A DNA stretch of 8,267 nucleotides from Mycobacterium sp. (lineage in GTDB: Bacteria; Actinomycetota; Actinomycetes; Mycobacteriales; Mycobacteriaceae). The notes under the pieces were generated by a model, which saw nothing but the letters and a program-made list of their open reading frames with translations, ran no database searches and was not told the DNA's origin. The stretch is from the NCBI GenBank assembly GCA_018500005.2, contig JAHBAP020000021.1:1-8267 (forward strand), given 5' to 3'. The translations under genes were made by a program, and so were the position numbers. The stretch's first letter is position 1. Every line of letters starts with the position of its first letter. Positions 5,222 through 6,613 of the stretch are shown piece after piece.

Positions 5222-6540
5222 TTGCCGACCGCCGGAGTGCTCGCTTCGTCGTCACCCGAGCCGTCCGCGTCCGGTTCGGCCGGGCGGACGAGTACCGTGC
5301 CGATCCGCAGTCGACCGCGCGGGTCGCGCTCCCCCTCGGCTCGCAACCGCAGCCCGTGCGAGACCACCTCGGCGCCCGGCAGTGGAACGCGGCCCAGTTT
5401 GAGAGCCACCAGCCCGCCGACCGTATCGACGTCGAGATCCTCCCCGAACTCGATGTCGTAGAGTTCGCCGACATCCTCGATGGGCAGCCGGGCTGAAACC
5501 CGGAACGTCTTGTCCCCCAGTTCTTCCACCGGAGCGACCTCGTTGGTGTCGTACTCGTCGGCGATCTCGCCGACGATCTCCTCGAGCACGTCCTCGATGG
5601 TCACCAGGCCAGCGGTGGCACCGTACTCGTCGACCAGCAGCGCGATGTGGATGCGGTCGAGCTGCATCTCCTTGAGCAGATCGTCGAGTGGCTTGGAGTC
5701 CGGGATGAACACCGCCGGCCGCATCACCTCGGCGACGGTGATGTCCCGGGCCGCGGCGTCCGAGTAGTACGTCCGCCGCACCAGGTCTTTGAGGTAGATC
5801 ACCCCGAGAACGTCGTCAACGTCCTCTCCGATCACCGGCATCCGGGAGTGGCCGCTTCGGATCGCCAGCGAGGTGGCCTGCGCCGCGCTCTTGTCGCTTT
5901 CGATCCAGACCATTTCGGTTCGCGGAACCATGACCTCGCGGGCCGGGGTGTCGCCGAGTTCGAAGACCGACTGGATCATCTTGCGTTCCTCGTCGGCCAC
6001 CACTCCGCGCTGCTGAGCCAGGTCGACGACCTCACGCAGTTCGATCTCGGAGGCGAACGGCCCGTTGCGGAAACCGCGGCCGGGGGTCAGCGCGTTGCCG
6101 AGCAGGATCAGCAACCGGCTGATCGGGGCGAGTAACACCGAAATACCCTGCAGTGGAATGGCGGACGCCAGCGCAATCGGATACGCGTGCTGCCGGCCCA
6201 GGGTGCGCGGTCCGACACCGACCACCACGAAACTTGCCACGGTCATGATCACCGCCGCGCAAATCAACGCCGAATCGACGGGAAGCCGGTTATCGAGGTA
6301 GGCCACCAACAGCACGCAGGCGGTCGCCTCGCAGGCGATCCGAAGCAGCACAACAAGATTGATGTAGCGGGGCTTCTCGCGGACCACCCGGCCCAGCCGG
6401 ACCGCACCCGGGCGCTCGTCGCGGATGAGTTCGGAGACACGGGCCAGCGACACCGTGCTGATGGCGGCGTCGATGGCGGAGAACACTCCGCCCAGCAGGA
6501 TCAGGGCGATCGCGCCGGCCAGCGGCGCCAACCCGGTCAA
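5218..6540 (-). CDS. CNNM/CorC-family membrane protein with CBS pair (Rv2366c-like)
   Basis: Integral membrane protein of the DUF21-CBS-CorC_HlyC family; bacterial members act in magnesium export or tolerance, so transport of divalent cations is the best guess. The product has 440 residues. Residues about 1-150 form the DUF21 domain, with hydrophobic segments near 6-26, 60-82, 90-110 and 122-148. Two CBS domains span about 200-325 ('VMVPRTEMVWIE' at 203-214; 'LLVDEYGATAGLVTIEDVLEEIVGEI' at 301-326, the family's hallmark loop). The CorC_HlyC domain is at about 335-425, followed by an acidic tail. The start TTG at 6540 gives 'MTGLAPL', matching my recollection of the mycobacterial protein, and an in-frame TGA lies upstream in the repeat. 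The start codon sits in the last copy of a 17-bp tandem repeat. The 3' end overlaps era. Confidence 0.93.
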   Translation of the reverse strand: MTGLAPLAGAIALILLGGVFSAIDAAISTVSLARVSELIRDERPGAVRLGRVVREKPRYINLVVLLRIACEATACVLLVAYLDNRLPVDSALICAAVIMTVASFVVVGVGPRTLGRQHAYPIALASAIPLQGISVLLAPISRLLILLGNALTPGRGFRNGPFASEIELREVVDLAQQRGVVADEERKMIQSVFELGDTPAREVMVPRTEMVWIESDKSAAQATSLAIRSGHSRMPVIGEDVDDVLGVIYLKDLVRRTYYSDAAARDITVAEVMRPAVFIPDSKPLDDLLKEMQLDRIHIALLVDEYGATAGLVTIEDVLEEIVGEIADEYDTNEVAPVEELGDKTFRVSARLPIEDVGELYDIEFGEDLDVDTVGGLVALKLGRVPLPGAEVVSHGLRLRAEGERDPRGRLRIGTVLVRPAEPDADGSGDDEASTPAVGK

Positions 6541-6613
6541 TGGTCCCAGCCGGTCAATGGTCCCAGCCTGTCAATGGTCCCAGCCTGTCAATGGTCCCAG
6601 CCTGTCAATGGTC
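6535..6613. repeat. 17-bp tandem repeat (four units plus 11 bp) at the ybeY–corC junction
   Basis: Units on the plus strand lie at 6535-6551, 6552-6568, 6569-6585 and 6586-6602, with a partial copy at 6603-6613. The unit is KGTCAATGGTCCCAGCC, where the first base is G in the first two copies and T in the others; all else is identical. The array covers the last codons and stop of ybeY, the whole 64-base gap, and the first bases of corC. Removing four units (68 bases) would leave ybeY and corC overlapping by four bases (TTGA), the usual form of a coupled operon junction. The array therefore looks like a recent multiplication of that junction by strand slippage. Near-identity of the units suggests it is young and probably variable in copy number. 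Confidence 0.97.
6537..6608 (-). other. Chain of four six-codon mini-ORFs linking the ybeY stop to the corC start
   Basis: On the minus strand each repeat reads TTG AC(A/C) GGC TGG GAC CAT TGA, encoding M-T-G-W-D-H and a stop. The four mini-ORFs are at 6608-6588, 6591-6571, 6574-6554 and 6557-6537. Each TTG overlaps the previous stop as TTGA, beginning with the ybeY stop (6607-6605). The last TGA overlaps the corC TTG (6540-6538). Because 17 + 1 is divisible by 3, every unit keeps this stop-start overlap. Whether ribosomes use it is inference; there is no strong ribosome-binding site, only GGGA three bases before each ATTG. Confidence 0.5.

Follow-up and report, generated by a model that had tools for sequence, protein, structure and literature searches.

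The junction between ybeY and corC in this mycobacterial operon carries four 17-bp units followed by the plain junction, spanning the stop codon of ybeY and the start codon of corC. Comparison with related sequences makes it probable that a 4-nt ybeY/corC overlap was locally duplicated in tandem and that the resulting array serves as a translational relay: on finishing ybeY, a ribosome would re-initiate at each of four six-codon mini-ORFs in succession and then reach corC.

Structure of the ybeY–corC array

According to the ORF list, the minus strand of the window (the whole 8,267-nt stretch of DNA analysed) bears genes that we take to be phoH, ybeY, corC, and era, the names having been assigned by family resemblance and synteny. 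TRF placed a tandem repeat at 6536–6613, with a period of 17, 4.6 copies, a 98% match, and a score of 149, whereas the second-ranking repeat of the window scored only 44. The unit is matched without mismatch by four consecutive 17-mers (Table 1), in agreement with the initial annotation, which had placed four copies and a partial one at the ybeY/corC stop–start junction; the interval it gave, 6535–6613, is correct at its end and starts one base early, and this is the sole point to be amended in that description. Each unit reads TTG-ACM-GGC-TGG-GAC-CAT-TGA, where the second codon is ACA three times and then ACC, and the TGA of each overlaps the following TTG. The mini-ORFs, each with a coding length of 18 nt, bridge the two genes without a gap in steps of 17, 17, 17, and 17, and all five of the stop/start junctions along it have the TTGA overlap, which bears out the unbroken series of mini-ORFs proposed earlier. 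By its period and copy number the array is a VNTR-type tandem array, and each of its steps has, as TTGA, the stop/start overlap (4 nt or 1 nt) that is characteristic of gene pairs coupled by termination–reinitiation (TeRe).

The array is 78 bp long and the ybeY–corC spacer 64 nt. Since the corC frame contains a stop 33 nt upstream of the TTG, with no ATG, GTG, or TTG between the two, the array holds no usual corC start. RNA structure was rejected as a function of the array, its fold being no better than that of shuffled sequences (z −0.07). The source is a draft metagenome bin of 625 contigs that is 72% complete, in which the window is one entire contig; as a draft MAG, it gives the copy number as assembled. 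At window positions 5218–5221, corC and era overlap directly, and the small gene that lies between them in many relatives, presumably Rv2365c-like, is missing.

Table 1. Genes and repeat units around the ybeY–corC junction (window coordinates).
Feature	Position	Strand	Description	Evidence
ybeY	6605..7138	−	Upstream of junction; stop TGA 6605–6607	ORF and tblastn relatives
corC	5218..6540	−	Downstream of junction; TTG start at 6540	ORF and homologous start in relatives
era	4319..5221	−	Gene after corC; 4-nt overlap with corC (GTGA)	ORF and sequence
Unit 1 (TTGACAGGCTGGGACCA)	6592..6608	−	Mini-ORF 1, 6608 down to 6588	Pattern match
Unit 2 (ACA variant)	6575..6591	−	Mini-ORF 2, 6591 down to 6571	Pattern match
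Unit 3 (ACA variant)	6558..6574	−	Mini-ORF 3, 6574 down to 6554	Pattern match
Unit 4 (ACC variant)	6541..6557	−	Mini-ORF 4, 6557 down to 6537; TGA overlaps corC TTG	Pattern match

Origin of the array

We surveyed ybeY in 252 distinct loci, sampled as one genome per species and including the window and a few loci from Rhodococcus, Nocardia, and kin. In 199 of them, ybeY and corC meet in a plain 4-nt overlap (GTGA in 165, TTGA in 27, and ATGA in 7); 51 show another arrangement and two have no corC in the locus. A tree of YbeY plus CorC (90 rows, SH-aLRT support) places the window beside G003 (SH-aLRT 98), also a draft genome, in which the junction is a plain TTGA. Given the plain overlap in this sister and in the 199 loci, the array appears lineage-specific, and the simplest reading is that it arose within the window's own lineage. 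The comparison thus upholds the earlier view of the array as a duplicated coupling junction, with relatives carrying the overlap rather than an unrelated spacer.

The same junction in the MAG nzgw94 holds three perfect copies of an unrelated 17-mer, chained in the same phase with steps of 17 and 17. This genome groups with M. neoaurum in a different clade, where the group of four has an SH-aLRT of 99, and its array is an independent 17-bp case at the ybeY–corC junction.

The distance between ybeY and corC exceeds 500 nt in 33 loci. Ten of these (L031, L042, L049, L057, L059, L182, L195, L247, L282, and L288) contain a single ORF of about 423–432 codons that has a 4-nt overlap with both genes, and the 24 nt preceding the far TTGA agree with the ybeY end at 17–20 of 24 positions; this looks as though a gene were lodged between two copies of the junction.

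Relay connection of operon spacers

Five junctions (phoH–ybeY, ybeY–corC, corC–Rv2365c-like, Rv2365c-like–era, and uppS–X) yielded 777 records, comprising 406 overlaps, 273 spacers, 88 records without a start beyond the stop, which were set aside, and 10 without a usable start; the 33 loci with the long ybeY–corC gap were left out. A spacer was scored as relay-connected if unbroken overlapping mini-ORFs joined the upstream stop to the downstream start, and the control consisted of one-base shifts, each spacer position being deleted or doubled in turn. Relay connection was found in 140 of the 273 spacers against 28.4 expected, so that chaining at related junctions lies far above the control. 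The excess was seen at phoH–ybeY (96/173 versus 21.9), ybeY–corC (8/16 versus 1.3), corC–Rv2365c-like (8/22 versus 1.3), Rv2365c-like–era (23/30 versus 3.3), and uppS–X (5/32 versus 0.6). These counts are not independent, as spacers are shared between related species and ancestry is still contained in them; when spacers of at least 12 nt were grouped by similarity, 44.2 of 73 were connected versus 8.1 expected from one-base shifts. The 133 unconnected spacers indicate that relays are not obligatory. Plain shuffles count against a relay, giving a small excess at ybeY–corC (6/9 versus 4.3) and a moderate one at phoH–ybeY (102/184 versus 59.6); because shuffling preserves spacer length and thus grants the right frame, we kept this null as a weak test and used the one-base shifts instead.

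Several spacers share recognizable units. At phoH–ybeY, two 11-nt steps occur in 23 of 184 spacers, and the steps in M. leprae are 23 and 11. In M. leprae TN (L078) the phoH–ybeY relay is unbroken; its CorC matches at only 38.6% in the best-placed segment, with a branch of 0.72, and its corC looks like a case of decay. A 65-nt mini-ORF unit of MIRU-like appearance is present at phoH–ybeY in two copies in L106 and L303 and as a single copy in L070, L124, L219, L275, and L292. The Rv2365c-like–era spacers of 68–86 nt (for example in L015, L068, L238, and L240) have inverted-repeat-looking ends and often one coupled ORF, and possibly represent a dispersed element.

Array periods at gene junctions

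Tandem repeats were scanned in 320 loci, amounting to 3.3 Mb of partly overlapping fetched DNA. The homology-verified set, in which both genes were recognized by homology, held 866 junction records and 13 arrays, after one of 14 rows (period 34) had been removed because 34 is twice the 17 of the window. Eleven of the 13 have periods of 3n+2 (11, 11, 65, 65, 23, 17, 17, 53, 26, 26, and 26), two have periods of 3n (57 and 36; both in frame, reading as N-terminal extensions), and none has a period of 3n+1. With shared units merged, nine events remain, seven of them 3n+2 (P = 0.008 versus one third) and none 3n+1 (P = 0.026); leaving out the window array gives six of eight (about P = 0.02, hand-worked). 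Arrays within coding sequence in the same scan numbered 96 (3n), 6 (3n+1), and 7 (3n+2), and non-coding arrays not called junctions 21, 8, and 16, respectively, the latter class holding several relay arrays.

A first count of 11 junction arrays had given eight 3n+2, two 3n, and one 3n+1, the last being an 82-bp array in L238. This row was set aside for the odd codon composition of its downstream ORF and for its upstream protein, which matches window ORF 214–633 (presumably Fur-like), an ORF convergent to its neighbour there. Outside the 13 stand the 35-bp array of nzgw94 and those of L241 (53 bp), L148 (35 bp), and L315 (9 bp, 3n), and the scan further lists arrays in L228 and L264 (32 bp) and L248 (53 bp). 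The survey was centred on one operon neighbourhood, with 20 stretches of 20 kb taken elsewhere, in which the L315 array, in frame, was the sole one called a junction. Among the 13, the 23-bp array of L168 repeats the ybeY start, with which the TAG stop of phoH in this locus has no overlap. A 26-bp uppS–X relay unit is common to L149, L150, and L235 (3.35, 2.38, and 2.23 copies); in L150 and L235 the array ends in TAG directly followed by ATG, and for this lack of overlap they were not scored as connected in the spacer survey. Single 26-nt steps occur at uppS–X in L228, L255, and L273. At L322:12399–12510, a 24-bp array of 4.7 copies begins at a gene's stop codon.

Proposed translational coupling across the array

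The bias in period is what selection for coupling would produce. A duplication of period 3n+2 would rebuild the stop/start overlap in every copy, so that termination–reinitiation could carry ribosomes along the chain; a period of 3n would yield an in-frame N-terminal extension; and a period of 3n+1 would leave re-initiating ribosomes out of frame and would presumably be purged. In studies on single gene pairs, re-initiation drops steeply with distance and is nearly abolished at ~20 nt in E. coli and Haloferax/H. volcanii, the last 15 nt of the upstream gene being enough for coupling in E. coli (PMC10666635), and coupling through NTGA overlaps has been shown for gene pairs of H. volcanii and E. 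coli (PMC6728339; PMC10666635). With a spacer of 64 nt, corC would be expected to be uncoupled unless relayed, which, together with the 18 coding nucleotides per mini-ORF, leads us to take the array as a frame-selected relay. Every junction of the chain has the NTGA overlap of such coupled pairs; the cited studies deal with one junction per gene pair, whereas the array has five in series, with six-codon ORFs and TTG starts. The coupling evidence comes from single junctions outside the mycobacteria, not from chains, and relay use here is an inference.

Shine–Dalgarno pairing is weaker in relay than in unconnected spacers overall (93 versus 68 spacers, P = 0.007), at phoH–ybeY (P = 0.015), and at ybeY–corC (P = 0.004, the eight unconnected spacers including Rhodococcus-type loci). 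The contrast is absent at Rv2365c-like–era (P = 0.31) and its direction is reversed at uppS–X. Serial TTG starts might be inefficient, which would count against a relay.

Alternative explanations

Mycobacterial interspersed repetitive units (MIRUs) reportedly go back to a 1997 description by Supply et al., and the array might have come from insertion of a MIRU or another dispersed element into the ybeY–corC junction. Repeats of 65 bp and 53 bp at neighbouring junctions in other species, MIRU-like in appearance, would fit this origin. So would the layout: a 2025 review describes MIRUs as inserting at start codons, with a small inner ORF coupled to the neighbouring operon genes at −4 spacing and a likely minimal impact on the target gene (PMC12548453), and each of the five junctions along the array has an equivalent overlap, making the MIRU parallel of the initial annotation apt. 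However, MIRUs are given as 40–100 bp long and scattered over 41 places in one genome in another study (PMC2734929), whereas the window unit is 17 bp, is built from the junction itself, and does not form a dispersed many-copy family in its 72% complete genome. Its four exact matches there all lie in the array, three single matches with 1–2 mismatches occur elsewhere against four for a control pattern, and no tandem copies outside the junction were found in the genome searched. In the 6.7-Mb genome of nzgw94, the three matches to that unit are likewise all at its ybeY–corC locus. As neither unit is arrayed elsewhere in its genome, both arrays are best regarded as local tandem duplications; with neither unit scattered, a dispersed element was rejected as their source, and MIRU insertion at this junction appears improbable in the extreme. 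An assembly artefact or a miscount of copies is very improbable as well: the bin is fragmented and incomplete and the window is a whole contig, but the array is short and its variants are ordered, and same-phase arrays occur in far more complete assemblies, such as the one-contig G224 and the two-contig G170.

A neutral minisatellite, in which slippage duplicated the junction, left both genes intact at any copy number, and produced the chain as a scarcely used by-product, would account for an array found in one genome only, for the ybeY and corC proteins being untouched whatever the period, and for the near identity of the units, which marks the array as recent. It would, however, predict periods spread evenly modulo 3, contrary to the 11, 2, and 0 of 13 observed, and the excess of relay-phase spacers over the one-base-shift control also stands against it; we regard it as rather unlikely. 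Another possibility is that the relay also has a regulatory function: ribosomes would be lost at each re-initiation, so that CorC and Era output would depend on how many units are present, a number open to change by slippage. The copy number of the 26-bp uppS–X array does vary among three genomes (2.2, 2.4, and 3.4), and in M. tuberculosis strains a tandem repeat that precedes fpg1 is reported to correlate with expression level (PMC2734929). This rnc–fpg1 VNTR, ETR-F, resembles the window array as a tandem repeat between neighbouring genes where most other species listed have few bases, but the available text of that study describes no stop/start chain and gives the expression link without a known mechanism (PMC2734929). 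Such a rheostat is conceivable, if unlikely.

Implications

If the preferred reading of a duplicated junction acting as a relay is extended beyond this locus, mini-ORF relays may be a general translational linker in mycobacterial operons, a proposal that we consider plausible without yet calling it probable. Spacers of almost any sequence, whether derived from local duplication, insertion, or dispersed elements, would be tolerated if the 3n+2 overlap is rebuilt, tens to hundreds of bases would be crossed by serial re-initiation, and the unit number could grade downstream output. The −4-coupled ORF of MIRUs is already known, as the review states (PMC12548453). Short tandem stop/start relays were absent from the titles and abstract beginnings of the open-licence literature searched, which is not proof of absence; on the same reservation, three points are apparently new: that a short stretch at the junction was duplicated locally, that this has happened independently more than once, and that spacers follow a frame rule. 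If right, the array shows an operon absorbing duplications and insertions at its gene borders with translational coupling kept, under a simple frame rule (3n+2) that is checkable in any genome, and such arrays would provide natural constructs for measuring serial re-initiation, a matter that single-junction studies leave aside.
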